Made by a program: the position numbers and the translations under genes. Positions 13,773-28,304 of a stretch of DNA of 28,304 bases are shown here, one piece after another (positions within the stretch are counted from its first letter, which is position 1; each line of letters opens with the position of its first letter). Source of the stretch: a virus; IMG/VR virus record IMGVR_UViG_3300029263_000551, positions 1-28,304 of that record; one strand, written 5' to 3'. The notes beneath the pieces are model-generated. The model ran no database searches, was not told the origin of the DNA, and worked only from the letters and a program-made list of their open reading frames with translations.

Positions 13773-13786
13773 GAAATAAATAATTA

Positions 13787-13829
13787 AAGGGGAGGCAATA
13801 AAAATTCTGATGAGCCTCCCTTTTTTTTT
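13787..13829 (+). terminator. Rho-independent terminator after capsid gene
   Basis: The stem pairs GGGAGGC (13790-13796) with GCCTCCC (13814-13820). It can be extended by a G-U pair and A-U pairs, with a 17-base loop. A run of nine or ten T follows (13820-13829). It lies 15 bases after the capsid stop codon and would isolate the scaffold-capsid transcript. Confidence 0.93.
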
Positions 13830-13853
13830 AACATAAACTTTAAATTTAATTAA

Positions 13854-14609
13854 ATGAAAAAACAAACAAGTATTTTAACAGACAAGACTTATAAATTAGT
13901 AGGAGATATTGCTCCTTTAAGTTTAATGATTCCTGCTAGAAATAGTAGAAGATCTCCATTAATGTATTTTGATGAAGATAAAAATATAAATAGATCTTTG
14001 CGTTATGCTAAAAATCAAAGAAGTCCTTTTGAGGATGAACAAGATGGAAATGCAATTTTAGAACCAATCGTATTTGAAGATGGGTTTTTATTTGTTCCTA
14101 AAACTAATCCAGTTTTACAAGAATTTTTAAGTTACCATCCATCTAATAATAGATTATTTGTAGAAGTAAACAAAGAACAAGATGCTGCAGGAGATGTAGA
14201 AAGTTTAGATTATGAATTAGAAGCAATGATTGCTGCTAAAGATTTAAGCTTAGAATTAATGGAAACTATTGCGACAGTTGTAATTGGTTTAAATGTAAGC
14301 AAAATGAGTTCAGCTGAACTTAAAAGAGATATAAGAATATTTGCAAAAAGATATCCAACTGATTTTTTAGAATCGCTTAATGATCCATTATTATTATTAC
14401 AAAATAAATGTTCTAAATTCTTATCAGAAAGTTTACTGATAATTAAAAATGGAAAAGACATTTATTATAATTTAAAAACAAACAAGAAAAAACTTTTAAC
14501 TATTCCATATGGAGAAGATCCTTTATTTATTCTAGCATCATTTTTCCAAAATGATGAAGGAGTAGAAGTTCTTCGTTTATTAGAAAATAGAATTAATAAA
14601 GTTAAATAA
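13854..14609 (+). CDS. Conserved structural-region protein of unknown function
   Basis: 251 residues between the capsid gene and a beta-rich virion gene. I recognise the family from marine Bacteroidota phages: an opening with APLSLMIPARNSRRSPLMYFDE, then RSLRYAKNQRSPFEDEQDGN, LEPIVFEDGFLFVPK and a helical second half ending in a GEDPLFILASFFQNDEG motif. The N-terminal half is Arg-rich with several invariant-looking motifs; the C-terminal half (from ~residue 110) is helical. There is no catalytic signature, membrane segment or signal peptide. Strong terminators on both sides make it a single-gene unit. I see no exact TAnnTTTG box in front of it (the closest is TAAACTTTA near 13834). A head-completion or capsid-associated role is possible from position alone. 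Confidence 0.85.
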   Translation: MKKQTSILTDKTYKLVGDIAPLSLMIPARNSRRSPLMYFDEDKNINRSLRYAKNQRSPFEDEQDGNAILEPIVFEDGFLFVPKTNPVLQEFLSYHPSNNRLFVEVNKEQDAAGDVESLDYELEAMIAAKDLSLELMETIATVVIGLNVSKMSSAELKRDIRIFAKRYPTDFLESLNDPLLLLQNKCSKFLSESLLIIKNGKDIYYNLKTNKKKLLTIPYGEDPLFILASFFQNDEGVEVLRLLENRINKVK

Positions 14610-14618
14610 AAATTAATG

Positions 14619-14626
14619 TAACTTTG
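14619..14626 (+). promoter_or_regulatory. Candidate -7 box just upstream of a terminator
   Basis: TAACTTTG fits TAnnTTTG, but a start near 14631 would run straight into the hairpin at 14632-14653, giving only a ~30-base RNA. There is no TTG at a -33 position. It is either a chance match or a decoy; see findings. Confidence 0.25.
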
Positions 14627-14631
14627 AAATG

Positions 14632-14661
14632 AACACTCTAGAAATAGAGTGTTTTTTTTTT
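14632..14661 (+). terminator. Rho-independent terminator with GAAA tetraloop
   Basis: Perfect nine-base-pair stem: AACACTCTA (14632-14640), loop GAAA (14641-14644), TAGAGTGTT (14645-14653). The T run extends to 14661. GAAA is a stabilising GNRA-type loop. It ends transcription of the 251-residue gene. An open frame reading through this hairpin from 14629 is an artefact. Confidence 0.93.
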
Positions 14662-14663
14662 AC

Positions 14664-14671
14664 TATATTTG
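14664..14671 (+). promoter_or_regulatory. Candidate -7 box for the modular virion gene
   Basis: TATATTTG fits TAnnTTTG and begins directly after the terminator T run. The predicted start point is near 14676, giving a ~22-base A-rich leader to the ATG at 14698. No -33 TTG is seen at normal spacing. Confidence 0.5.
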
Positions 14672-14697
14672 TAGAATATAATAAAAAAATTAAAACA

Positions 14698-15864
14698 ATG
14701 TCAAAATTTATATCAATACCAATATCAACTGAAATTAATTCTTCATTTACACTTGATGCTGAGTTAGTAATAAAAGGTAAACAAAGCGAAGCTATCGCAA
14801 GTGGTTCTTCAGATTCTATTGGTGCAACTCTTACAGCTTCAAATACTGCAACTGGTGTGGGATATCCAGACTCTGGTGCAGGTGTAGCAACGGTTGCTAC
14901 ATCAGGTACAGGTACAGGATTAACAGTTACTTATACGCAAACAGCAGGAGTAGTAGATGTAAATTCAGTTGTAGTAGTGACAGGTGGTATTAATTATCTA
15001 GTAGGTGATACATTTAGTATTGCAGGTGGTGATACTAATGCTGTTGGTGCAATATTAACAGTACAAACAGTAGTAAATAGATTGACAGATTCTAGTAAAG
15101 ACTTTGTTGCTTTAGGAGTTGCAGCAGGAGATTTTTGTTTTGATACAACAACTAATACTACTAGAATAATAGTATCAGTAGCAGCAACTTTTCTAACTTT
15201 AGATGGAACTTTCCCAGGAGGTAATAATTATTTTATTAAAAAACCATTAGTTGTAAGATCATCAACTGCTGATTTTTCAACACATCAAGTACAAGTTGGA
15301 GATATTGTAAGAAACATTTCAGATAATCTTTTTGCAAATGTTGCAGAAGTATTAAGTAACACAGAAATATTACTAGATGCTGATATTTTTAATACTGCAC
15401 AAAGATCAAATGCTAATTTCACTATTTCAGCTAAAGCTCAAGAACTATATAATTTTGATCAGCAATGGACTTCTAATGTAAAAGTAGGAGATTTTATTGT
15501 ATTTAGTTCTGGTGTTGTAAGTAAAGTAGAAGCTTTGGTTGGAACATTTTATAGAGTAAAATTATTTAAAAATGTAACAATTGATGATACTTTTAAAATT
15601 TATGACTCTTCTTTATCGAGTCCATTATTAGTTGCAGCAGATCATATTACAGTAGCAACAATAGATAGTACAACTTCAGTAAAATTATTTTGTTCTACAG
15701 ATTATACAATAACTTTAACAACTTCATCAGATGTTGACAAAACTGTTTTAACAGGTATTCAAAATGCTCAAATAGCAGCAGAAGGAAATGTTTCTGGAAC
15801 AGCTATATCTTTTGTACAAATAACACCATCGGATGTTGTAATTACAGGATCAGCAGTTGGATAA
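14698..15864 (+). CDS. Modular beta-rich virion protein (decoration/head-fibre-like)
   Basis: 388 residues from the ATG at 14698. The frame stays open back to 14629 but that part crosses a terminator and promoter, so the ATG is preferred. Residues ~43-125 are a Gly/Thr/Ser-rich block containing a G-x-x-Y-x-x-GD-x-x-x-I motif (GGINYLVGDTFSIAGG). Then come three copies of a ~45-residue beta module of the form 'F...V..GD.V......V..V.S.T.L.L': ~128-172, ~186-232 and ~251-290. The C-terminal ~60 residues are Ser/Thr/Val-rich. There are no membrane segments or catalytic residues. Its own promoter and terminators suggest high dosage, as for a decoration or head-fibre protein; this role is inferred from dosage and composition. 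Confidence 0.8.
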   Translation: MSKFISIPISTEINSSFTLDAELVIKGKQSEAIASGSSDSIGATLTASNTATGVGYPDSGAGVATVATSGTGTGLTVTYTQTAGVVDVNSVVVVTGGINYLVGDTFSIAGGDTNAVGAILTVQTVVNRLTDSSKDFVALGVAAGDFCFDTTTNTTRIIVSVAATFLTLDGTFPGGNNYFIKKPLVVRSSTADFSTHQVQVGDIVRNISDNLFANVAEVLSNTEILLDADIFNTAQRSNANFTISAKAQELYNFDQQWTSNVKVGDFIVFSSGVVSKVEALVGTFYRVKLFKNVTIDDTFKIYDSSLSSPLLVAADHITVATIDSTTSVKLFCSTDYTITLTTSSDVDKTVLTGIQNAQIAAEGNVSGTAISFVQITPSDVVITGSAVG

Positions 15865-15891
15865 AAATTAAATAATTTATTAAGATTATAG

Positions 15892-15926
15892 AGAGGTTTC
15901 AATAAAATGAAGCCTCTTTTTTTTTT
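15892..15926 (+). terminator. Rho-independent terminator
   Basis: The stem pairs AGAGGTTTC (15892-15900) with GAAGCCTCT (15909-15917), nine pairs with one G-U wobble and an eight-base loop. A ten-base T run follows (15917-15926). It is immediately followed by the next -7 box. Confidence 0.93.
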
Positions 15927-15927
15927 G

Positions 15928-15935
15928 TATCTTTG
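15928..15935 (+). promoter_or_regulatory. Candidate -7 box for ring-muzzle operon
   Basis: TATCTTTG, one base after the terminator T run. The predicted start point is near 15940, with a ~13-base leader to the ATG at 15953. No -33 TTG is visible at normal spacing. It would drive the ring, muzzle and following virion genes, which are nearly contiguous. Confidence 0.58.
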
Positions 15936-15952
15936 TGTAAACAAGATTAAAA

Positions 15953-16927
15953 ATGATAAATACAGTCAGAGCCACGGTAATGTCTATTGCTAATAAAAAC
16001 AACTACGGATACATAACTCCTAATGATTTTAATTTATATGCAAAACAAGCTCAATTAGATATATTTGAAGATTACTTTTATCAATATAACAGTTGGGTTG
16101 TAAAACAAAACGCAAGAGTATCTGGAAGTGGGTATGCTGATATTTTAAGAGGATTAGTAGAAGTAATCGATAGTTTTTCAGAAACAAGAGGATTAACAAA
16201 TACTGGAATTAATTTATTTAATTTACCAGAAGATTATTATTTAATTAATAAGATAAATTTATATCCTAATATAATTACTTCTTCTACTACAACAGCAGCT
16301 GCTCTTAACACATTAACAGATACAAATGCAACGTTTAATAACGGATCTGTACTACCAGGTCAGATAGTTTATAACTCTTCTTTAACAAGCGTTTCTAGTG
16401 GTGTAAGTGCATATGTAATAAGTGTTGATTCAGCTACACAATTAACTTTGTCTGCTAATCCATTTGGAACAGCAGCAACGATTGGAAATGGATATGTTAT
16501 TGCTACAACAGCAGGTATTAGAGAAATAGAAAGAGTTTCACAAAATAAAATATTTTATTTAAATTCATCTCATTTAACTTCTCCAACTACTTCATATCCA
16601 GCTTATGTTTTAGGTGGTGCTACTGCAGGTACATTTGGAAATACATTAACAGTATACCCAACAACAATTACTATTAGTAGTGGTATAGTTGTATCTCAAT
16701 ATATAAGATACCCATTAGATCCTAATTGGACTTACAGTTCTTTAACTGGTGGAGAACCAGTTTTTGATGAAGGTCAAGCTGATTATCAGGATTTTGAATT
16801 ACCAGAATCTGATGAACCTAATATAGTAAACAAAATATTACAATATGCAGGTGTTTCAATAAGAGAAGAACAAATAGTTGCTTTTGGACAATTACAAGAA
16901 AGTGAAGATAATACTCAACAAAATTAA
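15953..16927 (+). CDS. Ring/adaptor-type head-tail connector protein, crAss-like
   Basis: 324 residues. The N-terminal helical half (TVRATVMSIANKNNYGYITP, then FNLYAKQAQLDIFEDYFYQYN, then LFNLPEDYYLINKINLY) is the pattern I associate with crAss-like ring proteins, which stack under the portal and join it to the muzzle. Residues ~118-170 look like an inserted beta module (LTDTNATF...VLPGQIVYNSS...AYVISVDSATQLTLS) related to those in the preceding gene. The core seems to resume at REIERVSQNKIFYLNSSHLTSP, then YPAYVL. The C-terminus is acidic (ELPESDEPNIVNKILQYAG). It lies two bases before the next ring-type gene. Which ring of the stack it forms cannot be told from sequence alone. Confidence 0.75.
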   Translation: MINTVRATVMSIANKNNYGYITPNDFNLYAKQAQLDIFEDYFYQYNSWVVKQNARVSGSGYADILRGLVEVIDSFSETRGLTNTGINLFNLPEDYYLINKINLYPNIITSSTTTAAALNTLTDTNATFNNGSVLPGQIVYNSSLTSVSSGVSAYVISVDSATQLTLSANPFGTAATIGNGYVIATTAGIREIERVSQNKIFYLNSSHLTSPTTSYPAYVLGGATAGTFGNTLTVYPTTITISSGIVVSQYIRYPLDPNWTYSSLTGGEPVFDEGQADYQDFELPESDEPNIVNKILQYAGVSIREEQIVAFGQLQESEDNTQQN

Positions 16928-16929
16928 AT

Positions 16930-17853
16930 ATGGCTTATATAACTGACTATCAGTATTACGAAAATAATGGAACTGCACCTGAAGATTCTAATTGGGGATC
17001 TTATCAATATGTAACATTAGATGACATTGTAACTAACTTTATTTTAATGTATGTTGGTAATGATAAACTAATTAATAACGTAGAAAAATATAATATTTTA
17101 TTTCACGCAAAAAGAGGAATTCAAGAATTGAATTATGATGCTATGAAAGAAATTAAAATATTAGAATTAAATGTATCTGATCAATTAAGATTTATTTTGC
17201 CTCAAGATTATGTAAATTGGGTTAGAATATCTTTATACAAAAATGGTGTATTAATGCCATTAACTGAAAATATACAAACAAATTGGAGTGGAGCATATCT
17301 ACAAGATAATAATTATAGAATTTTATTTGATGAAAACGGTAATATTTTAAAACCTGAAAATTCTACTTTAGATATGGATAGAATTGCAAACACGCAAAAA
17401 TCTATTTATCTAAATGCAAACAGTCCACAAAATGGTAATGAAGGGTTTAATATTGATGGGATGTGGTATTTTGATTATAATATTGGTAATAGGTTTGGTT
17501 TAAATACAGAAACAGCAAACGCTAATCCTACATTTGTAATTGATAAAGCTTCAGGAGTAATTAATTTTAGCTCAGGAATGTCAGGAGAACTTTGTATTCT
17601 TGAATATGTTTCTGATGGTATGAAAAATGGTGTAGATTCTCAAATAAATTTAAATAAATTATTTGAAGATTTTATTTATGCCTATATAAAATATGCTATA
17701 TTAACCAGTAAATACGGAGTACAAGAATATATTATTAATAGAGCAAAAAAAGACAAAGCTGCTTTATTACGAAACGCAAAATTAAGATTAAGTAACATAC
17801 ACCCTGGTAGATTATTAATGAATCTAAGAGGTCAATCTAAATGGTTAAAATAA
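16930..17853 (+). CDS. Second ring/adaptor-type protein (P22 gp4/T7 gp11-like role)
   Basis: 307 residues. The N-terminus (TLDDIVTNFILMYVGNDKLI, then YNILFHAKRGIQELNYDAMKEIK) is a helical bundle followed by beta strands (LELNVSDQLRFILPQDYVNWVRISLYKNG). This is characteristic of tail-adaptor families next to the muzzle gene in crAss-like phages. The C-terminus is helical and basic (INRAKKDKAALLRNAKLRL), ending in RGQSKWLK. It starts two bases after the previous stop and ends one base before the muzzle start, so the three should be produced together. It is not obviously a paralogue of the preceding gene at sequence level. Confidence 0.75.
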   Translation: MAYITDYQYYENNGTAPEDSNWGSYQYVTLDDIVTNFILMYVGNDKLINNVEKYNILFHAKRGIQELNYDAMKEIKILELNVSDQLRFILPQDYVNWVRISLYKNGVLMPLTENIQTNWSGAYLQDNNYRILFDENGNILKPENSTLDMDRIANTQKSIYLNANSPQNGNEGFNIDGMWYFDYNIGNRFGLNTETANANPTFVIDKASGVINFSSGMSGELCILEYVSDGMKNGVDSQINLNKLFEDFIYAYIKYAILTSKYGVQEYIINRAKKDKAALLRNAKLRLSNIHPGRLLMNLRGQSKWLK

Positions 17854-17854
17854 T

Positions 17855-20800
17855 ATGCCTCAGTTTACAAGAAATTTTATAAAAGGAAGAATGAATAAAA
17901 GCGTTGATGAGCGATTAGTTGCTCAAGGCGAATATATTGATGCTTTAAATTGTAGATTAGGTTCTACTGAAAATACAGAAATTGGAGCTGTAGAAAATTC
18001 TTTAGGAAATTCTACGTTAACTATTTTAACATATGAAGGTCAAGCTTTAAGTGATAAATCTAAATGTATTGGTTCATTTGAAGATGGAGGTACAGAAACT
18101 TTATATTGGTTTGTAAATGATCCAGCTAATGAAACTTCAAGTACTGGTAAAGTAGATATGATAGTTTCATATAATACTAATTTAGATTTACTTTTTTATC
18201 ACGTTATTTCTACTAGTCTTTTAAATTTTAATAATTTAAATTTAGTTACTGGTATTAATTTAATAGATGGGTTATTATTTTTTACTGATAATTTAAATGC
18301 TCCAAGAAAAATAAATGTAAATAGAACCTATCCATATCCTATAAGTGATGTTGATCAAATATTTGAACAAGACATTGGTGTTATTTTAGCACCGCCTTTA
18401 TTTGCACCTACATTAACGCCTATTCAACAAGGTGGTGGAGAAAATTTTATGAAAGATATTATGATATCTTTTGCTTATAGATACAAATATGAAGATAATG
18501 AGTATTCAGCAATATCACCATTTTCCCCAATATCATTTACTCCAGGACCATTTTCATTAGATTTTGCTACTTATAATAATGCTTCAATGGAAAATGTTTT
18601 CAATAGTGTTATTGTAGAGTTTAATACTGGTGGTAGAAATGTTGTAGGAATTGATTTATTATTTAAAAATTCTGAAATGGTAACAGTAAATGTTATCGAA
18701 AAATTTAATAAAGTTGATCAAGGTTGGTTAGATAATATTAATCAAACTTTTCAATTTACTAATCAAAAAATTTATACAGTACTTCCTGCAGCACAAATGC
18801 TAAGATTGTATGATAATGTACCTAGATATGCTCAAGCTCAAACAATAATGGGCAATAGATTAATGTATGGTAATTATATAGATGGATATAATATTACAAA
18901 TTCAGCTGGTCAAAGTGTATATTTAGATTATACATTAGAAAGAGTAAGCGAATCATTAGGTGCAGGTGAAAAAGATTCTGTTAATACTGCTTTTACTTAT
19001 ACAATAAATGGAGCTGTAAATCAATTAAATGCAACTGCAAGTTATGATACTACAGGTTTTGCTTTAATAACAGGATCACAAATAGGTATTTCATTTAATT
19101 TTGGACACGGACAATTTTCTGGATCAGCAACTTATATAGATGGTAATGAACCTCTTAATGAATTTGTTGGAACATTTTTATTTACTCTTCAACAAAATTT
19201 TGACAATGCACACGATATGGTTACTAGTCAAGCTTTTATAGATGGTATAACTACATTTGTAGCTCCTTCTTCATCTAATTGTTTTCCTATCAAATGTTCT
19301 TCAGGATGTACAAACGGTTCTTCTGTTACAGATTTAATTAACTGTGGTATTGTTACTAATGCAGCAGGTGGATGGGAAAAAGTTGGTTTTGGATTGTCAG
19401 GAATTGATCAGGGTATTGTAATTACTTCTACTCCAGGTAGTAATGTTTTTACATTAACTCCTCAAGCATTAAAATTTGAAGCATATAATCAAGCAACTGT
19501 ACCACCTACAGCTTTAGGTGTTTTTGCTTTTGAATACCTTACTATTAGACAATCAGAACTTCTTTATAGTTTAGATTCTTCTAGAAAAACATTACATAGT
19601 GATAGAGATTATGAAGTAGCAGTTGTTTATGAAGATGAGTATGGTAGAGCTAGTACTGCTTTAGTGGATATAAATAACACTATTTATATGCCTTGTGAAA
19701 ATTCTATTACTAAAAACACAATAAAAATAACATTAAGTAGTTATCCTCCATTTTGGGCAAAAAAATACAAGTTTGTATTAAAACCATCTAAAGATGAATA
19801 TCGTACAGTATTTTCAAACATATTTTTTCCAGAAGAAGAAACTGGTAATGTGTGGTTTAAACTAGAAGGAGACAATAAAAGTAAAGTAGTTTTAGATGAA
19901 AATTTAAAAGTAAAAGCTGATACTACAGGAGCAGTATTAAGATGTGTTGAAACTAAAGTTTTAGATTACGGATCTCAAGTTAAAGATTTTTTATGTGCTA
20001 GAGATAGCAATGGCGTTAAAGTAGATCCAGATTGTACACAACCAGGTGGAGTATATATGCAATTAAGACCTTCAAATTTTGCAGCTGCAATAGCACCAGA
20101 TTCTTTGATAAATACAGGTCAAGAAACTTGTAGTTCAGGTGATTTTTGTGCTGTTAAATATAGTGTTTCAATTAAAAATCCTGATAGTACTGGAGCAACT
20201 GATGAATTTATTCCTTACACAATACCAGCAGGTAGTATTGTTACTATAATACTAACCGAGAGTAGATCTAGAAGAGGAAACAGATGTGGTGCTAAAAAGT
20301 ATAATTATAATAAAACATTTACCGCTGGTCAAGACTACGAAAGTATGTATGCTTTTGTAGAAGGTCAAAATATTGATTTAACAAATGGTTCAACTGATGG
20401 TACAACTGATGATGGTGGTCCAAACAATATAAATCAACCTAGTACATTATATTCATTTTTTACTAGATTAGCTACTGATTCGCAGTCATATGTTACTTTT
20501 CAAACTGATGCTGCAAATGGAAAAATGTATTTAGTTCATCAAACAGGGACACAAAAATGTCGTGGTTTAGATATAAGAAATTCTTATGCAACAGTAGAAT
20601 TAATTGTTCAAAGAGCAACTACATTAATGATATTTGAAACTGAAGCAAAAGATGCTAATACAGAATTGTATTTTGAAAACGAACAAGTTTTTGATATAAC
20701 TTCTGGTAATCATCAATCTGGTTCAAATACTACAGATCAAAATCAAACTAGTTTATTACCTGCTATTATTAATTTAACATTTTCTAATGCATTTGTTTTT

Positions 20801-22693
20801 GGTAATGGTTGTGAGTCTAATAGGGTTTTAGATGCTTTAACAACTCAAAGTTTTACTTTGGGAGAAAAAGTAACTGCAGTTTCTGAAGAGGATTATAAAG
20901 AAAATTTACGATTTGCTGACATAACTTATAGTGGAAACTTTAATTTAGAAACGAACGTTAATAAACTAAATGAATTTAATTTAGCTTTAGCTAATTTTAA
21001 ATCTTTAGAATCATCATTTGGTCCTATAAGAAAATTACACGCAAGACAAACAGATATTTTAACATTACAAGAAGATAAAATCTCATATGTATTAGTAGAA
21101 AAGAATCTTTTATCTGATGCAGCCGCTGGTGGAGCTATTGCTTCTATACCAGAAGTTTTAGGAACTCAATTAGCTCGTATAGAAGAATATGGTATTAGTA
21201 ATAACCCTGAAAGTTTTGCTCATTATGGGTATGATGTATTTTTTACAGATGCTAAAAGAAGTTCTGTATTAAATTTAAGAGGTGGAATTAGTGCTAAGTC
21301 TGACAAATTAGAAGTAATATCTAATCAAGGTATGCGTAGTTGGTTTAGAGATTTATTTACTGATGATTTTAATACACAAAAATTAGGAGGTTATGATCCA
21401 TATATGGATGAATATGTACTAAGCAGTAACTCTAGTATTGTACCTGTTGAACCAACTAAAAGAGATTGTGGATATAATATAAGACAAACGTTATCGAGTA
21501 AAGCAGTTGTTTTTGACCTTAATTGTACTTCAACTATAGGTATTGTATCAGTTGTTTATAATTTTACTGCAGGTTCGGCTGTACTATTAATTAATTATAA
21601 TGGTATAGATGTAGTTAATCAAACAATTTCAGGAACAGGAACATTAACGTGGAATAAAAATCAAGCATTCCCAGTTGGTGCACAGGTAACAATTACACCT
21701 ACCGCAGCAACTTATTCTGTTACTATTGGATGTCCTTCAACGGAAAATCTAACTGTAAAACGTATTGTTATTAATGAAAGTGGCGATGCTTCTTTAACTT
21801 CTTCTATAAGATACAGATGGTCAGATGGTGTTACAACCAGTCCTTTTCAAAGTGACAATATTATATTAGAAGAAGATGGTACTTCTTTATTTGCTTCTCA
21901 AACTGGTCCTGCATCGTTTGGTACTATTCCAACATCTGGATCAACTGTGACAATGCAAAACTTACAACCAAGTGGAGATACATTTATTTTTGATCCTTTA
22001 TCGGATAAATTTAAATATTTAGTTTCTAATGTTAATTATAACGAAGCTGATATTAATACATTAATACCATTGTTGAATACTGCTACCCCTATTACGTTAA
22101 CTGGTTTAAATACTTATTCAGCTCCTTTTACATATAGTAATGCAGCTAACAATGATTATTTATATTTAGTTTGGGATTATAGAGTATCTACTGCAATTGA
22201 GTTATGTTATGATGCTTCCTCTTCTACTTCATCTTGTTGTGATTGCGGAACTGATGCACCTACTTGTCCAGATAGAACTTTAGTTTTTCAAGTGTGTAAT
22301 AGTAACTCTGCTAAAGATGATAATTTTGATGTATATTTAAATAACAACTACATAGGAGCATTAGATTTAAATTCTAATACACAAGCTGGATCAGTATTTA
22401 TTGCATCTAATAATGCAAGTTCTACAATTGTAACTAGTGATTTTGTTTGTCCTTTAAACCTTATGGTTACATATAGATTCAACCCTAATTTTGTAGTGGG
22501 TGGTGCTAATACTTTAGAGTTAAGGAATACTCAATCAAATAATAATGGTAACTTTGGTTCTATAGGATTAAGAAACTATTTAACAACAGGTAATAATTTA
22601 ACAAGTCCTTGTGTTGTAACTGATTTAGTTTATTCTGGATCAACAGGTCAGAGTTTTAATATATCATTTAACTACACGGAGTGTTGTCCTTAA
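17855..22693 (+). CDS. Muzzle/tail stabilisation protein (P22 gp10-like role, crAss-like)
   Basis: 1612 residues. The N-terminus QFTRNFIKGRMNKSVDERLV, then GEYIDALN and IGAVENSLGN, is the hallmark opening of the large 'stabilisation/muzzle' family of Bacteroidota phages. That protein forms the tail tip below the rings and holds the genome in. A second conserved block lies near residues ~1060-1190: LHARQTDILTLQEDKISYVL, YGISNNPESFAHYGYDVFFTD, ISNQGMRSWF and LGGYDPYMDEYVL. The last ~400 residues seem to be separate beta domains: one beginning RDCGYNIRQTLSSKAVVF, and a Cys-rich linker (SSTSSCCDCGTDAPTCPD). A final sandwich follows (KDDNFDVYLNNNYIGALDL...NTLELRNTQSN). The C-terminus is ECCP. Such C-terminal additions may be surface-exposed and variable. 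No enzymatic motif is visible. Confidence 0.83.
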   Translation: MPQFTRNFIKGRMNKSVDERLVAQGEYIDALNCRLGSTENTEIGAVENSLGNSTLTILTYEGQALSDKSKCIGSFEDGGTETLYWFVNDPANETSSTGKVDMIVSYNTNLDLLFYHVISTSLLNFNNLNLVTGINLIDGLLFFTDNLNAPRKINVNRTYPYPISDVDQIFEQDIGVILAPPLFAPTLTPIQQGGGENFMKDIMISFAYRYKYEDNEYSAISPFSPISFTPGPFSLDFATYNNASMENVFNSVIVEFNTGGRNVVGIDLLFKNSEMVTVNVIEKFNKVDQGWLDNINQTFQFTNQKIYTVLPAAQMLRLYDNVPRYAQAQTIMGNRLMYGNYIDGYNITNSAGQSVYLDYTLERVSESLGAGEKDSVNTAFTYTINGAVNQLNATASYDTTGFALITGSQIGISFNFGHGQFSGSATYIDGNEPLNEFVGTFLFTLQQNFDNAHDMVTSQAFIDGITTFVAPSSSNCFPIKCSSGCTNGSSVTDLINCGIVTNAAGGWEKVGFGLSGIDQGIVITSTPGSNVFTLTPQALKFEAYNQATVPPTALGVFAFEYLTIRQSELLYSLDSSRKTLHSDRDYEVAVVYEDEYGRASTALVDINNTIYMPCENSITKNTIKITLSSYPPFWAKKYKFVLKPSKDEYRTVFSNIFFPEEETGNVWFKLEGDNKSKVVLDENLKVKADTTGAVLRCVETKVLDYGSQVKDFLCARDSNGVKVDPDCTQPGGVYMQLRPSNFAAAIAPDSLINTGQETCSSGDFCAVKYSVSIKNPDSTGATDEFIPYTIPAGSIVTIILTESRSRRGNRCGAKKYNYNKTFTAGQDYESMYAFVEGQNIDLTNGSTDGTTDDGGPNNINQPSTLYSFFTRLATDSQSYVTFQTDAANGKMYLVHQTGTQKCRGLDIRNSYATVELIVQRATTLMIFETEAKDANTELYFENEQVFDITSGNHQSGSNTTDQNQTSLLPAIINLTFSNAFVFGNGCESNRVLDALTTQSFTLGEKVTAVSEEDYKENLRFADITYSGNFNLETNVNKLNEFNLALANFKSLESSFGPIRKLHARQTDILTLQEDKISYVLVEKNLLSDAAAGGAIASIPEVLGTQLARIEEYGISNNPESFAHYGYDVFFTDAKRSSVLNLRGGISAKSDKLEVISNQGMRSWFRDLFTDDFNTQKLGGYDPYMDEYVLSSNSSIVPVEPTKRDCGYNIRQTLSSKAVVFDLNCTSTIGIVSVVYNFTAGSAVLLINYNGIDVVNQTISGTGTLTWNKNQAFPVGAQVTITPTAATYSVTIGCPSTENLTVKRIVINESGDASLTSSIRYRWSDGVTTSPFQSDNIILEEDGTSLFASQTGPASFGTIPTSGSTVTMQNLQPSGDTFIFDPLSDKFKYLVSNVNYNEADINTLIPLLNTATPITLTGLNTYSAPFTYSNAANNDYLYLVWDYRVSTAIELCYDASSSTSSCCDCGTDAPTCPDRTLVFQVCNSNSAKDDNFDVYLNNNYIGALDLNSNTQAGSVFIASNNASSTIVTSDFVCPLNLMVTYRFNPNFVVGGANTLELRNTQSNNNGNFGSIGLRNYLTTGNNLTSPCVVTDLVYSGSTGQSFNISFNYTECCP

Positions 22694-22724: not shown

Positions 22725-23648
22725 ATGAGTGTAGTAAATAAGTTTATAGATTCAGTAAGTTTTTTAACTGCAAACGCAGTCTATGATGATGTTAATTTAA
22801 CAATTAAATCCGCTGATGGTTTTTATCAATTTGGTGGACAATATAGACAACAGTTAAGTGGGTTATTATTATCTTCTAATGTATGTGCTGATTGTTTTAC
22901 ATTTGATTCTTTAGATTATGTTTCTACGGTATCTCAAGATCTTTGTTGTTTAACGCAAACATCTGTACAATATTATTATCCAAATGGTTTAACTTTTTTA
23001 AATACTACAAATATATTTACTGATGTTAATTTAACTACAATAGCACCAGATGGATTCTATGGAGAACCAGCTGGAAACCAATATAGGCAAATGACTGGTA
23101 GTGTTTTAGCAGCGGTAGCATCTTGCTCTGCTTGTTATAGTGCTGTTAATTTAGAATTTAATGTAACTTCTGCAAATGATTTATGTTGTGTTAGTAGAGT
23201 AACTTCTTCATACTTTGTTGATTATGGATCTTCATTATCTACTACTAGTAATGTATATACAGATACATCAGGTACTGTTGCAGCCGCAGGGTTTTATAGA
23301 ACTCCTGGTACAACAAGTTATAGACAAATTACTGGTTCTACATTAGGATCTTTAAGTGTTTGTCCATCTTGTGGAGCAGCTAATACCTCTTTCTTTGTAA
23401 CAGCAGGAACTTCTACTTTAGCCGATGGTATGTGTGGAATTAATACTAGTCAACTTTTATATCATAATGGATCAGGAACTTTACCTCAAGTCGGTGATAT
23501 TATTTATTCAGGATCTTCTCCTGGATCATCAACTGTTACGTGGAGTAACTACAGAGGAATTGGTCCATCTGACGTTGGAGGTGGTGCAACTGAGTCTGCA
23601 ACAGTAAATGCTTCAGGAGCTGTTTTACTTATAGCGATTTGTCCATAA
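22725..23648 (+). CDS. Cysteine-patterned 80-residue repeat virion protein
   Basis: 307 residues built of three ~80-residue repeats plus a partial fourth. Each repeat reads N-x-[YF]-x-D..DGFY/AGFY, YRQ-x-[LT]-[ST]-G, CxxC, a strand, then DLCC or GMCG. Landmarks: YRQ at 40, 120 and 199; CxxC at 54-57, 134-137 and 213-216; CC at 74-75 and 154-155, with a single Cys at 237. The partial fourth repeat has LLYHNGSGTLPQVGDIIYSG, a motif I associate with surface or virion proteins of Bacteroidota and their phages. The sequence is hydrophilic and beta-rich, without a signal peptide. It follows the muzzle gene, whose C-terminus is also Cys-rich, so it may attach to the tail tip. Function is unknown; host-binding or tail decoration is inference. 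Confidence 0.8.
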   Translation: MSVVNKFIDSVSFLTANAVYDDVNLTIKSADGFYQFGGQYRQQLSGLLLSSNVCADCFTFDSLDYVSTVSQDLCCLTQTSVQYYYPNGLTFLNTTNIFTDVNLTTIAPDGFYGEPAGNQYRQMTGSVLAAVASCSACYSAVNLEFNVTSANDLCCVSRVTSSYFVDYGSSLSTTSNVYTDTSGTVAAAGFYRTPGTTSYRQITGSTLGSLSVCPSCGAANTSFFVTAGTSTLADGMCGINTSQLLYHNGSGTLPQVGDIIYSGSSPGSSTVTWSNYRGIGPSDVGGGATESATVNASGAVLLIAICP

Positions 23649-23668: not shown

Positions 23669-24418
23669 ATGCCAAGTTATACATTAACATATAGTCAAGG
23701 AGTTAAAGGATTTCCATCGTTTTATAGTTTTTTTCCAGACTATATAATGGGTATGAATCAATATTTATATACTTTTAATAAAGGTAATTTATATCGTCAC
23801 AATACTAATGTGTTAAGAAACAACTATTATGGTATTCAATATAATTCTACTATAACAGGAGTTTTAAACGATCAACCTTTACAAGCAAAAATATTTAAAA
23901 CAATTGAATTAGAATCTGATGGTAGATGGGCAACAACTTTAATTACTGATTTACAATCAGGTAGTATTGCTGCTGATTATTATTCTTTAAAAGAAGGATC
24001 ATTCTTTAGTTTTATTAGATATAATTCAGGTTCTCAAAATTTAAATTTACGTTCTACACAAGGTATTGGAACTTGTTTGACTGTAACTGGTAGTGTTGCA
24101 GCTCCACCAGTAGTTATAAGTTTTAGTTTTTCTGTGGATTCAATTTTAAGTATTGGTGATAAAGTATATAAAGTATCCGCTGGAGTTTTATCTGAAGTAG
24201 GACCAGTTACTGCAATATCTGAAAATAGAACAGCAATTACAATTGCAATTCCAGTAGGAGATATAGTTGGTGGTGATCAAGTTGTTTACTTAAAAGATTC
24301 AGTTGCTGAGTCTTATGGTATGTTAGGTTATTATTTAGAATTTACTTTAACAAATACCAGTACAAGTGCGGTTGAGTTATTTTCTGTAAACACTCAAGTC
24401 TTTAAAAGTTTCCCATAG
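23669..24418 (+). CDS. Conserved virion-associated protein of unknown function
   Basis: 249 residues. The first ~90 (YSQGVKGFPSFYSFFPDYIM, then NQYLYTFNKGNLYRHN, NNYYG and LQAKIFKTIELES) form a motif set I recognise from marine Bacteroidota phages in the tail region, function unassigned. Residues ~152-209 (VDSILSIGDKVYKVSAG, then VTAISENRTAITI) resemble the small beta module in the capsid and decoration proteins. The C-terminal strands (YLEFTLTNTSTSAVELFSV) look like a beta-sandwich edge. It begins after an AAAT-rich leader and ends with TAG, the only TAG stop used by a gene here. Position between muzzle and internal-protein genes suggests a tail or head-tail component. Confidence 0.82.
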   Translation: MPSYTLTYSQGVKGFPSFYSFFPDYIMGMNQYLYTFNKGNLYRHNTNVLRNNYYGIQYNSTITGVLNDQPLQAKIFKTIELESDGRWATTLITDLQSGSIAADYYSLKEGSFFSFIRYNSGSQNLNLRSTQGIGTCLTVTGSVAAPPVVISFSFSVDSILSIGDKVYKVSAGVLSEVGPVTAISENRTAITIAIPVGDIVGGDQVVYLKDSVAESYGMLGYYLEFTLTNTSTSAVELFSVNTQVFKSFP

Positions 24419-24424
24419 ATTTTG

Positions 24425-24436: not shown

Positions 24437-24847
24437 ATGGGATTTATTATAAAAAAATTAAAAGATACTGACTACGAGGAAATTTTAGTAAATTGGTGGA
24501 ATGATTGGAGATGGAAAGCTCCTCCTAAAGATTTTTTACCTGAAAATGGTAAAGGTGGATATATTGTTTACGATGAAGATATTCCTGTTTGTGCAGGATT
24601 TATTTATGTAACTAACTCCAAAGTAGGATGGTGTGATTGGATTATTTCTAATTTTCATTATAAAGATAAATCAAAAAGAAAAGAAGCATTAGAAAAGCTT
24701 ATAAATGTTCTAACTCAAACACTAAAAAAAAGCAATTGTAAATATGCTTATGCTTTAATAAAGTCAGATAGTTTAATAAATGTATATAAAGAACAAGGTT
24801 ATATGGAGGCAGGTCAATACAATAAAGAAATGATTAAAATATTATAA
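24437..24847 (+). CDS. GNAT-fold acetyltransferase-like protein
   Basis: 136 residues from the ATG at 24437; an in-frame TTG at 24422 would lie within the promoter box and is rejected. It reads as a compact GNAT domain: IIKKLKDTDYEEILVNWW (strand 1/helix 1), a Trp-rich loop, LPENGKGGYIVYD, then PVCAGFIYVTN (strand 4 position). A helix follows (KRKEALEKLINVLTQTLKK), then YAYALIKSDSLINVYKEQGYMEAG (C-terminal strand-helix-strand of GNATs). The acetyl-CoA loop (R/Q-x-x-G-x-G/A) is not conserved; SKRKEA occupies that place, so catalysis is doubtful. It sits directly before putative internal virion genes and is nearly the size of T7 gp13 (138 residues). It could be an assembly factor of the internal core rather than an enzyme, which is inference. 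Confidence 0.78.
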   Translation: MGFIIKKLKDTDYEEILVNWWNDWRWKAPPKDFLPENGKGGYIVYDEDIPVCAGFIYVTNSKVGWCDWIISNFHYKDKSKRKEALEKLINVLTQTLKKSNCKYAYALIKSDSLINVYKEQGYMEAGQYNKEMIKIL

Positions 24848-24848
24848 T

Positions 24849-25724
24849 ATGCAAGTAACATCAACAATTTTATCTTTGGGATCAATGGCTTATAAAGGCT
24901 ATGCTGGACTTCAAGCAGGAAAAGAAGCTGATAGAGAAGCAGGTTTACTTAGACAAAAAGAACTAGCTTTAGAAGAACAAGCGTTAGCAGATTTAGAACA
25001 AAATAGATTAGATTCTATTCAAGCTCCTATGGAAGTATTTGATAGAGCTAATGAATTTAAAACTCTTGATGGTTCTACAATTTTAGAATCTGCAGCAGAA
25101 GGTGATACAAGAGGTGTTTCTGCAACAGCTGGTAAAATTAAAGCAACTCAAGATCTTGCTAGAAGTCAAGATAGAGATGCATTGACCAAGATAAAATTAG
25201 ATATTGACACAAAAGCTGCAATAGAAGGAAATAGAAAAGGTGAGTTGGTGAGTACTATGAAAGATACGAGAGGAGAATCTGCAGGAATTGAATCAAAGTT
25301 GTTACAACAAGAAGCTGATACGCTTACTTCTACTGGTATGGATGCTCTAGGATCAGCTGCTTTAGGAGCAGTTAGTGCCTTAACACCAGCCTTTAATTCA
25401 GATTTTAAAAAGGCTGCAGAAGCACTACAGGCAGCTGCAAAAGCAAAAGGAGAAACTCTTTCTGATACAGATGCTTTAGCACAAGCAAAAGCGTTTGCTA
25501 AGTTTGATGCAGAAGATGCAGCAGCTGAATCAGCTGAAGCTGAAGTAAGTACTATAGACAAAATAGGAAATGCAGTAAATAAAGTTGGTACTGCTTTTGG
25601 TATAGGTGATGGAAAGGATTTTGGAGAATCTAAAGTAGGTGGTTTTTTAGGAGGTATTGGAGATAAAGTATCAGGTTTTTTAGGTGGTTTTGACTGGGCA
25701 TCAATGTTTAAAGGTAAATTATAA
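24849..25724 (+). CDS. Ala/Gly-rich putative internal (ejected) virion protein
   Basis: 291 residues. It begins with a mildly hydrophobic helix (STILSLGSMAYKGYAGLQAG), then a long Ala/Glu/Lys/Gln coiled region (REAGLLRQKELALEEQALADLEQNR), an Ala-rich stretch and AAEALQAAAKAKGE. The C-terminus is Gly-rich and amphipathic (VGGFLGGIGDKVSGFLGGFDW). Small Ala-rich helical proteins with glycine-zipper-like segments, such as T7 gp14, are carried in the head and enter the cell envelope during DNA ejection. It starts one base after the GNAT stop and ends nine bases before the next large gene, so the cassette is co-transcribed. There is no signal peptide. Assignment is by composition and order. Confidence 0.75.
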   Translation: MQVTSTILSLGSMAYKGYAGLQAGKEADREAGLLRQKELALEEQALADLEQNRLDSIQAPMEVFDRANEFKTLDGSTILESAAEGDTRGVSATAGKIKATQDLARSQDRDALTKIKLDIDTKAAIEGNRKGELVSTMKDTRGESAGIESKLLQQEADTLTSTGMDALGSAALGAVSALTPAFNSDFKKAAEALQAAAKAKGETLSDTDALAQAKAFAKFDAEDAAAESAEAEVSTIDKIGNAVNKVGTAFGIGDGKDFGESKVGGFLGGIGDKVSGFLGGFDWASMFKGKL

Positions 25725-25733
25725 AAAAATAAT

Positions 25734-28166
25734 ATGGCAATAAAGGCAGAGAATTTATTTAAATTAGAAAAACTAGGTGCGATAAAATCTAAAGCCAATA
25801 CAAGTTTTGCAGATTCATTGGCAAAATTTGGAACAGGAGTTCTTCTTGATCAGGAAGCTAAAGCAGAAACTCGTCAACAGTTTAAAGAAACAGGTTCGAA
25901 GGATATAAGAGATCTTAGATTACTAAGAGATCAGGCTGTTAAAGATGGTGCTACAAATGAGAAGTCTTCTAGTGGTGGAAGTATTGAATTAGGCGATGTG
26001 CCATCAAATACTACACTATCAAATTGGACATTAAAGAATATAGATAATTTTATTGCACAAACTTATAAAAGACAAGAAGTAGTTACTTCTGGATTAGGAG
26101 GAAAATTTGCTGTTAGAGATTACGGTATATATAAAGCTAATCAAAAAGCAACTTGGCAAGCAATAAAAGGAAGAGTAGATAATGCAGAGGCACAATCTGT
26201 ACGAAATAAAGAAATGAATGAAGGTTATACTAATGATAAGGGAGTGTTTGTCCCTCCAACTTCTGGTCAAGGTAATCTTGCAATGCAGAGTAGTTTCGCT
26301 TTTATCCAAGATTTAAATAATACAAATGTTACACCTGATGATGAAGGAAATGGTATAGTAGAGGTTTATCAAACAGTATTCGATCCAACTACTGGTTTAC
26401 AGAAAAGAGTGTTGGATCTTAAAACTGGTCTGCCTATACTTGATAAAGATAAAAGTGGTGTAAGTGTTTTAGCTTTATTGCAAAACGGAGGAGAGGAATG
26501 GAATTCAACAAATGTTAAAACTGATGTGGATACAGCATTTAATCCAACTGTTTTGGATTCATATGAAACTATAATTGGTATGCAGGGTTTCGTAGGCGGA
26601 TCTAGAGAAGATAATGTAAGAAGAAATCCTGAATTTCTTAATTACGCAAATAGTTTTATAAATAGTAAAACACGAACTAATAGAGATATATCTAGTACGT
26701 TAACTGATAATTTTATTATGGGAACGCAAGGATTTAAACAATTAACTGCACAAGAAACCAGTACTGGTTATATATCAGATCCAGCAAACCCTGGTAAGAT
26801 GATAGAGTTTAATCCAGACGAAAAAATATCAGTTAACGTTGTAACGTCTTGGGATGCTAATGGAAAACCTGTATATGAAAACTTAAAAGTTAATAAATAT
26901 ATTGGAATGAGGATGACTAAGCCTGCTGGAATCTTAGTAGTTGATACTAATGATGAACAAAGAAAAGCTGCTACAGGTTTTTTTAGAGGTGTTATTAGTG
27001 GTAAAGTAGGTAGAAAATTTACACCTGGACAAGCTAGAGCACAATTTGATCCATACAAAAATCAACTAGATAAAGACAAGTTGAATAAGCTTACTGACAA
27101 ACAATTGTATAATATAGATACAATGGAGAAAATAAGCAATTTAATTGTTGGTGGTCAAGAGGTAGGAAAAGCAGAATTAGAAGCATTACAGAATCAATCA
27201 AAATATAAATTTTCTGAAGGTGTAACTGAAGTTAGAAAACTTGATTATAGATCAGGTGCAGAGGTTGTGACTAAGTTTACGCTGGGTGTTGACAAAAACG
27301 AAGGTTTAGGATCAATAGATATGAATATTACCACAAGAGAGCCAAACAAGAAATTTGATTTAGATAAACAATTAATTTCTGGGGATGGAACTGCAGGAAG
27401 TCCATATGTATTGCAACCAGAGTTTATTATCAAGAAGGAAGATGGAAAAGATGTAAAGGTTAAAAATCCTAAATATCAACCACAATTTCTTAAAATGACT
27501 AAAAAACAACTTGAAAATAATCTGTATGCAGTATATGGTGAAGGTTCTTCAACTGCAGCTAGAACAGGATTAAAGGTTAGGTTAGGAGATAAATACTCAG
27601 AATTTGCTGAACCAACTGGTGTGGATAGTGGAGGAAAAGATATAGATGTTACCATTACTAAGACTGTATTTGAAGATGCTATAAGAGGTGTTACTGTAGA
27701 TGATATTTTAGCTAAGGATGGACAAACTGCTACTCAAATGCTTGTTGATTCGGAAGCATACAAATCCATTATTAGTAATACATTTAATTTTGGTATTGAT
27801 GATGAGCAAACAATAAAAATGACAAATGAGTTAGGAAAATTATACAGAGCTTTAGGTGTTAAACAAGACGATGGTCAAGGAGAAGATGTTGAATTTTTAG
27901 CTGATCCAAATGGATATAATATTTCTATTACTATTCCTGATCCAGCTGATCCTAAGAAAAGAAAAACAATAAAGACAGTAACTTTAAAAGGAAATGATGA
28001 AACATTTGCACAAAATATAAATGAGTTATTTAGAGAAGCTGTAAAAACAGGATATACTGCTAAAGCAGAAACTGATTTCCTAACAAAAACGGTTAAAAAC
28101 ATTACCTATACTCAAGATGATATGGGATTATTTAAAGATAAGAATGGTAACATTTTAGAAGAATAA
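25734..28166 (+). CDS. Large putative internal/cargo virion protein
   Basis: 810 residues, hydrophilic throughout, with alternating helical and mixed segments and no Cys, signal peptide or membrane helix. The N-terminus (AENLFKLEKLGAIKSKANTS) and following coil (EAKAETRQQFKETGSKDIRDLRLLRDQ) resemble internal core proteins. Middle segments contain FMGTQGFKQLTAQE-type helices, GKMIEFNPDEKISVNVV and repeated Lys/Asp-rich strands. Size is near T7 gp15 (747 residues) and it occupies the matching position after a gp14-like gene. crAss-like virions also carry large cargo proteins. No enzymatic motif was recognised. Codon use is somewhat more varied than in the fibre gene. The role is inferred from order and composition. 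Confidence 0.78.
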   Translation: MAIKAENLFKLEKLGAIKSKANTSFADSLAKFGTGVLLDQEAKAETRQQFKETGSKDIRDLRLLRDQAVKDGATNEKSSSGGSIELGDVPSNTTLSNWTLKNIDNFIAQTYKRQEVVTSGLGGKFAVRDYGIYKANQKATWQAIKGRVDNAEAQSVRNKEMNEGYTNDKGVFVPPTSGQGNLAMQSSFAFIQDLNNTNVTPDDEGNGIVEVYQTVFDPTTGLQKRVLDLKTGLPILDKDKSGVSVLALLQNGGEEWNSTNVKTDVDTAFNPTVLDSYETIIGMQGFVGGSREDNVRRNPEFLNYANSFINSKTRTNRDISSTLTDNFIMGTQGFKQLTAQETSTGYISDPANPGKMIEFNPDEKISVNVVTSWDANGKPVYENLKVNKYIGMRMTKPAGILVVDTNDEQRKAATGFFRGVISGKVGRKFTPGQARAQFDPYKNQLDKDKLNKLTDKQLYNIDTMEKISNLIVGGQEVGKAELEALQNQSKYKFSEGVTEVRKLDYRSGAEVVTKFTLGVDKNEGLGSIDMNITTREPNKKFDLDKQLISGDGTAGSPYVLQPEFIIKKEDGKDVKVKNPKYQPQFLKMTKKQLENNLYAVYGEGSSTAARTGLKVRLGDKYSEFAEPTGVDSGGKDIDVTITKTVFEDAIRGVTVDDILAKDGQTATQMLVDSEAYKSIISNTFNFGIDDEQTIKMTNELGKLYRALGVKQDDGQGEDVEFLADPNGYNISITIPDPADPKKRKTIKTVTLKGNDETFAQNINELFREAVKTGYTAKAETDFLTKTVKNITYTQDDMGLFKDKNGNILEE

Positions 28167-28170
28167 AAAA

Positions 28171-28304
28171 ATGAATAAATATAGAACTCCTAATGGTAGA
28201 ATAGTAAGTGAGTCTGATTTAATTAATAAATATGGACAAGATCAATTTAATAAACTTGTTGCTTCTGGTAAGTTTACTTTAGTTACTGAGGAAGTCGTCA
28301 AAGA
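28171..28304 (+). CDS. Start of another large virion-type gene (3' end missing)
   Basis: An ATG follows the previous stop after AAAA, and the frame stays open to the window edge, giving the first 44 codons. The opening (MNKYRTPNGRIVSESDLINK, then YGQDQFNKLVASGKFT) is one I recall from the N-termini of large proteins in marine phage internal-protein cassettes: a short 'T-P-x-G-x-x-V-S-E-x-D-L' element followed by a helix. By order it would correspond to a T7 gp16-like or other large ejected protein, which can carry a transglycosylase. No such domain is visible in this fragment. Confidence 0.75.
   Translation, partial: MNKYRTPNGRIVSESDLINKYGQDQFNKLVASGKFTLVTEEVVK

Follow-up and report, generated by a model that had tools for sequence, protein, structure and literature searches.

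Parts of PMC8954989 describe the ejection genes of podoviruses as an operon of a small, a medium and a large gene, in which the slot of T7 gp15 was matched mostly by size and synteny. In the T7 record gp13 has 138 residues, gp14 196, gp15 747 and gp16 1318. An analogy between a small GNAT protein and gp13 has already been proposed for the cobaviruses (passages of PMC6775973), and for crAss001 Bayfield et al. expected gp45 and gp46 to contribute to a channel, as in T7 (passages of PMC10172136). Here we describe a cassette in the complete IMG/VR virus record IMGVR_UViG_3300029263_000551, a stretch of 28,304 bases (the window), in which a crAss-type muzzle gene is followed by genes for a GNAT-fold protein of 136 residues, an Ala/Gly-rich protein of 291 residues, a middle protein of 810 residues and the start of a giant gene. 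We consider it fairly probable that this is an ejection-protein cassette acting like T7 genes 14-16, together with an assembly factor of GNAT fold, probably non-catalytic, in the position of gp13. A search of the open-licence literature found no paper describing a cassette of the order muzzle, GNAT, small, medium and giant.

All genes of the cassette are on the + strand. The GNAT-fold protein in the gp13-like position (24437..24847) matched phrog_17252 (expectation value (E) 1.8e-38); its length is counted from an ATG, and with an alternative TTG upstream, at 24422, it would be 141 residues. The 291-residue protein, resembling gp14 or internal virion protein B (IVP-B), is encoded at 24849..25724 and consists of Ala and Gly to 27%. 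The middle protein, which occupies the gp15 position and has no recognised fold, follows at 25734..28166, and the giant gene in the gp16-like position begins with an ATG at 28171, its first 44 codons (28171..28304) lying inside the window. Directly before the GNAT gene is the C-terminal part of a split muzzle (tail tip/nozzle; 249 residues, 23669..24418), recognised by the Pfam family crAss_MUZ_C (PF25729, E 5.5e-15) and by its match to residues 1199-1290 of crAss001 gp44 (E 0.003). The gap between the muzzle part and the GNAT gene is 18 nt. An earlier note on this DNA, made from the sequence alone, had listed the three proteins and the start of a large gene in this order, and our open reading frame (ORF) calls agree with it, as does the T7 record with the T7 sizes that it quoted. 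Its statement that the genes follow each other without gaps was almost exact, the gaps being 1 nt (GNAT-small), 9 nt (small-middle) and 4 nt (middle-giant).

To determine the gene order in related phages, a profile was built from four GNATs, which detected at least 535 related stretches in IMG/VR, and the 80 closest were kept. The resulting 85 loci, chosen by their GNAT, consisted of 82 IMG/VR loci (including the contigs L002 and L003) and three named phages; one contig was counted twice, as L003 and L008. Genes were labelled with family hidden Markov models (HMMs) built from the same loci. With these labels the muzzle gene was directly upstream of the GNAT gene in 85/85 loci, and, where the contig reached far enough, the small protein directly followed the GNAT in 82/83, the middle protein the small one in 77/79, and the giant gene the middle one in 62/66 loci. 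Median gaps were 1 nt, 9 nt and 5.5 nt for GNAT-small, small-middle and middle-giant, respectively. The exceptions were phi46:3 (L004), which has an insertion of three small reverse genes; L017 and L031, whose reading frames look broken; and L086, with an unlabelled piece of 769 residues. HMMs grown from the window proteins alone found, the seed aside, all collected small and middle proteins except those of L004 and L006, and all collected giants except those of L004, L005 and L006 and three cut copies; an earlier, smaller run had recovered 78/81 small, 62/67 middle and 49/55 giant proteins. The GNAT was 60-89% identical to the window copy in 31/31 rows of alignment A4, a close set drawn from the 80 stretches kept, and 42 of its 136 columns were invariant. 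Mean column identity was 33% for the small, 24% for the middle and 36% for the giant protein. These results show that the order of the cassette is conserved beyond chance.

The AlphaFold model of the 136-residue protein, built with 32 sequences of the window family, had confidence scores of pLDDT 91.9 and pTM 0.87. In comparisons with the PDB, Foldseek returned 520 chains at E <= 0.001 and VIA-align placed 999/999 chains at Z >= 5. The best VIA-align match was ArgA (5yge_A; Z 15.9, root mean square deviation 2.2, 127 residues aligned), and the best 50 matches listed, with Z values of about 14-16, were nearly all acetyltransferases by title. Judged from the model, we are confident that the protein has the GNAT fold, which the earlier note had recognised and which sequence-level searches in Pfam, NCBIfam and the PDB had missed.

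In active GNATs the acetyl-CoA loop reads R/Q-x-x-G-x-G/A. Between the strand 63-71 and the helix 78-98 the window family reads about Y-K-D-K-x-K-R-K-E-A. With the register set by eye, Arg81 was invariant (32/32 sequences) and Gly occurred at position 79 in 1/32; the motif fits in two registers, which have the middle glycine in 1 and 0 of the 32 sequences. By its sequence the loop is degenerate, in keeping with the earlier description of this GNAT as catalytically doubtful, and acetyl-CoA may be bound through other contacts. T7 gp13 relatives are also without the motif, and in SIO1-type GNATs the middle glycine is lost, the R is kept and so, mostly, is the last small residue. The Pfam family Phage_T7_Gp13 (PF11090), which recognises T7 gp13 itself at 1.1e-47 and describes it as only a probable scaffold protein, was not listed for the window GNAT at E 10.

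The resemblance to real enzymes at these Z values would also fit an active acetyltransferase acting on a protein of the virion or the host and owing its place in the cassette to expression timing alone, and the 42 invariant columns could include its active site. In Pseudomonas phage Achelous, moreover, the GNAT gene (L118, 13268-13729) precedes the head-tail adaptor gene, away from ejection genes, and its product follows the SIO1 pattern, likewise without the middle glycine; loss of the glycine is thus not specific to an assembly role. Against a live enzyme stand the lost glycine and the invariant Arg81 in the window family, and the adjacency of muzzle and GNAT genes in every locus, which suggests a structural partner. 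We regard a live acetyltransferase as unlikely. In a tblastn search the SIO1 GNAT had matches in 229 phage records, spread over many genera. The K1E genes 41/42, annotated as acetyltransferase, were set aside; they encode 92 and 95 residues and lie elsewhere in the genome.

The window proteins find the GNAT, the muzzle and the ring-position protein of four named phages, ctfjg026, elemo, phi46:3 and phi18:3. Three phi18:3 proteins at the cassette positions, gp120 (small, 227 residues), gp121 (middle, 499 residues) and gp123 (giant, 1935 residues), carry the deposited note 'experimental MS/MS proteomics' (MS/MS, tandem mass spectrometry), and so do gp112-gp115, the products of the four genes just before the GNAT gene, the muzzle among them. 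The GNAT gp116 and an extra protein of 103 residues are without this annotation, absence from the list being weak evidence of absence. The record of an elemo phage lists the giant and the small protein as structural proteins, and the GNAT as hypothetical. Window-seeded HMMs found the small and middle proteins of ctfjg026, not its giant, and did not reach the small, middle and giant proteins of phi46:3, phi18:3 and elemo. When all ORFs of seven named stretches were ranked with profiles made from the window and IMG/VR sequences alone, the small proteins of elemo (69%), phi46:3 (12.3%) and phi18:3 (11.1%) took ranks 1-3 of 81. The elemo giant was 1st of 64 (96%), with those of phi18:3 and phi46:3 at 12th and 56th. 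For the middle protein crAss001 gp46 came first of 64, at 1.3%, and the elemo, phi46:3 and phi18:3 proteins 7th, 27th and 36th. The earlier note had named virion proteomics as a check; the deposited MS/MS data speak for virion proteins at all three positions in phi18:3, and of these gp120 is the one that is linked to the window protein by sequence, through its profile.

The small protein family is marked by an N-terminal hydrophobic stretch, which by hydropathy only, and with copies kept, was present in 77/81 members vs 3/349 control ORFs of similar size drawn from the same loci. Profiles of the small protein and of the GNAT were also ranked against 211 ORFs of 90-1000 residues from 17 stretches of T7-like phages, cobaviruses, crAss001, Achelous and K1E, a set whose decoy ORFs are in part closely related to each other. 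With the small-protein profile all five cobavirus IVP-B proteins took ranks 1-5 and T7-type gp14 proteins, assigned by position, ranks 6 and 9. With the GNAT profile four cobavirus GNATs led the list (1-4); T7 gp13, present in two records of one phage, took 5-6, and the GNATs of SIO1 and Achelous were 8th and 12th. The alignments of these ranked proteins were short (10-69 columns). Scores were compared with those obtained after shuffling the columns of the target, a treatment that removes helical periodicity and so flatters Ala-rich helices: the small protein scored 32.7 with cobavirus IVP-B (shuffled maximum 19.0), and the GNAT 29.7 with the cobavirus GNAT (22.8), the real score being reached by 0/60 shuffles in both cases. 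T7 gp13 itself scored 20.5 with the cobavirus GNAT (20.1; 0/60). With a small-protein profile made from IMG/VR sequences only, IVP-B of P12053L was 5th of 81, outranked by an exonuclease and the three homologous small proteins; the best nine did not contain T7 gp14. A tblastn search with the 291-residue protein gave no match in 50,697 phage records. The ranks of the GNAT and of the small protein support, without proving, a shared role with the cobavirus and T7 counterparts and, at the level of sequence profiles, possible remote homology.

The model of the 810-residue protein (pLDDT 74.5, pTM 0.45) shows long helices at 24-163 followed by alpha/beta domains. Compared with the PDB it gave nothing above Z 4.4; T7 gp15, crAss C1 and DEV gp72 were not among the best 50 matches listed, which excludes nothing. 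In BFVD ten matches were obtained at E <= 0.001, all unnamed proteins of 520-692 residues, which to judge from the models possibly belong to the same family. No match to the protein was found by tblastn in the same 50,697 phage records. When 74 ORFs of at least 300 residues from 12 stretches were ranked with the middle-protein profile, an exonuclease came first, gp15 at 2 and 7, crAss001 gp46 at 5 and a medium cobavirus protein at 6, all at <=1.6%. The relationship to gp15 that the earlier note had drawn from order and size thus found no support in the profiles, nor in the mixed fold of the model.

The giant gene was read to its end in the contigs L002 and L003, whose 810-residue protein is 95% identical to that of the window. 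It encodes 2221 residues (12438-19103) and is followed by genes on the opposite strand, hence the forward block ends with it. Hydrophobic segments lie at 443, 2010, 2107 and 2155 of the protein, whose last 30 residues form a basic tail with a charge of +11; by the same measure T7 gp16 has hydrophobic segments at 390, 1136 and 1189. A tail charge of at least +5 was found in 6/15 distinct complete giants vs 20% of 416 control ORFs. The earlier note had proposed to read the gene beyond 28304 for a transglycosylase: the SLT domain (PF01464), which is recognised in T7 gp16 at 1.7e-31, was detected at E 0.1 in 0/17 giant members scanned, six of them cut at the 3' end, and a transglycosylase was likewise absent from the giants of two other scans. 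According to passages of PMC8954989, the ejection proteins of P22 and Sf6 are likewise without a transglycosylase. With a 38-row giant profile and the set of 74 ORFs, four of five T7-type gp16 proteins ranked 1-4 and that of K1E 10. The alignment with gp16 covered about residues 270-416 of the T7 protein, and its score of 37.8 was reached by 0/24 shuffles (maximum 23.1) at a probability of 4%. Two observations concern individual giants. A DUF3293 domain was recognised at residues 1323-1392 of the elemo giant (L006, 16394-27478; 3694 residues; E 1e-12) and was listed for none of the other giants scanned, and phi46:3 has ORFs of 1439 and 626 residues (L004, 17848-24367) vs the single 1935-residue gene of phi18:3, so the giant gene may be split there.

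Several results weigh against an ejection cassette of the T7 kind. No single match to T7 or cobavirus proteins was significant, the best being 37.9% and those to T7 at most 4%; in direct profile-profile comparisons with T7 proteins the pairs tried gave <=1.0%, the 4% being that of the giant with gp16. In column shuffles the margin was slight for the small protein with T7 gp14 (19.6 vs 18.1) and for the GNAT with T7 gp13 (17.4 vs 17.1), 0/60 shuffles reaching the real score in each case, and other T7-type gp13 and gp14 proteins were not among the best 14 of the 211 ORFs. The real score of the middle protein was beaten by 3/60 column shuffles in the comparison with gp15 and by 59/60 in that with the large cobavirus protein. 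When the 17-row giant alignment A7 was used, the nine best of 64 did not include T7 gp16; the link to gp16, seen with one alignment and gone with the other, is thus alignment-dependent. The N-terminal hydrophobic stretch is weak in the small protein of the window itself (0.74), which with its close copies makes up the four family members below the threshold, and only 8/15 distinct complete giants had a hydrophobic segment in their C-terminal 350 residues. The middle and giant proteins of phi18:3 and phi46:3 correspond to those of the window by position, not by sequence, so that the MS/MS argument for these two is positional, and the elemo middle protein is annotated as hypothetical. Finally, the middle-protein model, of moderate confidence, is mixed alpha/beta, unlike helix-rich gp15 and the T7 core, whose helix-rich nature is described in passages of PMC11784390.

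This last point would also suit internal structural proteins of the head or the tail lumen (fillers, tape-like proteins or a portal collar) that are not ejected, and MS/MS data indicate presence in virions, not ejection. The hydrophobic N-terminal stretch of the small family, its similarity in rank to IVP-B and gp14, and the position of the genes after the nozzle gene, as in podovirus ejection operons, argue in the other direction, and we think it rather improbable that the three proteins stay in the particle.

An ejection cassette would operate as follows. The 291-residue, 810-residue and giant proteins would be loaded near the portal during assembly, and at infection would pass out through the muzzle before the DNA does. 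The small protein would insert its N-terminal hydrophobic helix into the outer membrane, the middle protein would span or organise the periplasmic stretch, and the giant protein would reach the inner membrane via its hydrophobic segments. The GNAT-fold protein may serve as a binding or scaffolding factor in the assembly of the core without entering the mature virion; the same has been suggested for T7 gp13. The ejectosome-like set proposed in the earlier note is partly supported, by the order and sizes of the genes, the phi18:3 MS/MS data and the profile ranks of the GNAT and the small protein, not by significant one-to-one homology to T7. Much more tentative is a joint proposal that T7 gp13, the cobavirus GNAT and the window GNAT form one class, a catalytically dead GNAT-fold chaperone that loads or folds the ejection core, stays outside the virion and has its gene after that of the nozzle and before that of the first ejection protein in podoviruses of unrelated hosts; we would put it as a doubtful possibility.

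A tail-tip domain is shared with crAss-like phages, and the muzzle family profile matched crAss001 gp44 at 91.5%. Besides the C-terminal part, a protein of 1612 residues (17855..22693, + strand; phrog_14478, E 2e-241) has a weak blastp match to residues 1049-1164 of gp44 (E 0.16), and by these matches to different gp44 stretches the muzzle gene looks split in two. Between the two parts, at 22725-23648, lies a gene for a Cys-containing protein of 307 residues. The muzzle slot is variable: elemo has one gene of 1470 residues directly before the GNAT gene, phi18:3 a muzzle split without an insert, and the gene at this slot differs in size or, in ctfjg026, is annotated as putative glycosidase. Other window proteins gave marginal matches to crAss001, the terminase at E 0.005 and the rest above 0.1; the best blastp match to a cargo protein was that of the 291-residue protein to gp45 (E 0.30). 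Cargo profiles gave 0.0 to 0.4% with gp45, gp46 and gp47, and the giant profile 0.2% each with gp47 and gp50, the crAss proteins being compared as single sequences, as only two loci were available for a profile. Strings of the form D-x-D-x-D occurred in 29/55 giants at scattered positions. An RNA polymerase in the giant protein, considered for a recurring D-x-D-x-D-K in the C-terminal region, was rejected after motif and blast checks, the surroundings being unlike those in crAss001 gp50.

A strictly crAss-type cargo, in which an RNA polymerase subunit of the virion, injected for early transcription, is the giant itself or a part of it, would draw on the shared order muzzle-gp45-gp46-gp47 with gp47 annotated as an RNA polymerase subunit, on the size of the giant, on the virion RNA polymerase of schitovirus DEV in the gp16 slot (passages of PMC10925440) and on the first rank of gp46 with the middle-protein profile, and is very improbable in view of the low profile scores, the scattered strings with their differing surroundings, and the result that no Pfam RNA polymerase domain was found at E 0.1 in the 17 giants scanned (of 55 rows).

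In their records phi18:3 and phi46:3 are assigned to Pachyviridae and the elemo phage to Elemovirus, with no Crassvirales in the lineage; together with the unclassified podovirus ctfjg026 (MW202828) these are the nearest named relatives. Going by the sequences of the GNAT and the muzzle, the phage appears to group with Pachyviridae/Elemovirus-type relatives, and not demonstrably with Crassvirales. The term crAss-like phage in the earlier note therefore holds for the C-terminal muzzle domain and the muzzle-cargo order, and not for the nearest relatives. Elsewhere in the window, 2-4198 encodes a fibre-like, repeat-rich protein of at least 1398 residues, whose end, judged by eye, resembles an endosialidase-type chaperone (S74) domain. 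Nine other window proteins had no Pfam match at E 0.01, NCBIfam returned 0 families for six proteins searched, and PDB sequence searches with four family profiles gave no credible match. In ctfjg026 (L137, 10672-12562) GroEL and chaperonin-10 genes are annotated.

An ejection function for this cassette would link a widespread podovirus group, with at least 535 GNAT-encoding stretches in IMG/VR and named members that infect Flavobacteriia, to the ejection machinery of T7 and crAss001. The cassette supplies candidates for the outer-membrane, periplasmic and inner-membrane components, and it turns a puzzling GNAT beside ejection genes into an assembly-factor hypothesis that can be tested in cultured phages such as phi18:3.

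Judged by operon criteria, the cassette behaves as an ejection set of the T7 type, but at the level of sequence it does not qualify as a member of the T7 families. With T7 (Autographiviridae) it shares the gene order after the nozzle, the relative sizes, a first protein without the glycine loop and, in most family members, a small protein with an N-terminal hydrophobic stretch. In contrast to T7, there is no significant sequence homology, the giants have no SLT domain and measure 2221 to 3859 residues vs 1318 in gp16, and for the middle protein, where gp15 forms a helical tunnel, the model was mixed alpha/beta at moderate confidence. crAss001 has the same succession of muzzle (gp44), C1 (gp45), C2 (gp46) and giant (gp47), and the MUZ C-terminal domain is common to both. 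It differs in having no annotated gene, and thus no GNAT, between gp44 and gp45, in its cargo sizes (842/534/2341 residues), in cargo without detectable sequence similarity to the window proteins, and in additional genes for RNA polymerase on the opposite strand (gp49-gp50). The cobaviruses (SIO1, P12053L) encode, as here, a nozzle, a small GNAT and then the small, N-terminally hydrophobic IVP B, and among the systems tried they provided the best profile partner of both the GNAT and the small protein; unlike here, the large protein (1484-1487 residues) precedes the medium one (564-679 residues), and their GNATs retain the R of the loop and, in most cases, its final small residue. Closest are the named relatives. 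phi18:3 and phi46:3 differ by three small reverse genes between the GNAT and the small protein and by an extra gene of about 100 residues, and elemo and ctfjg026 by giants of 3694 and 3859 residues vs 2221 in L002/L003, but all of them have homologous muzzle, GNAT and tail proteins and the same order of the cassette.

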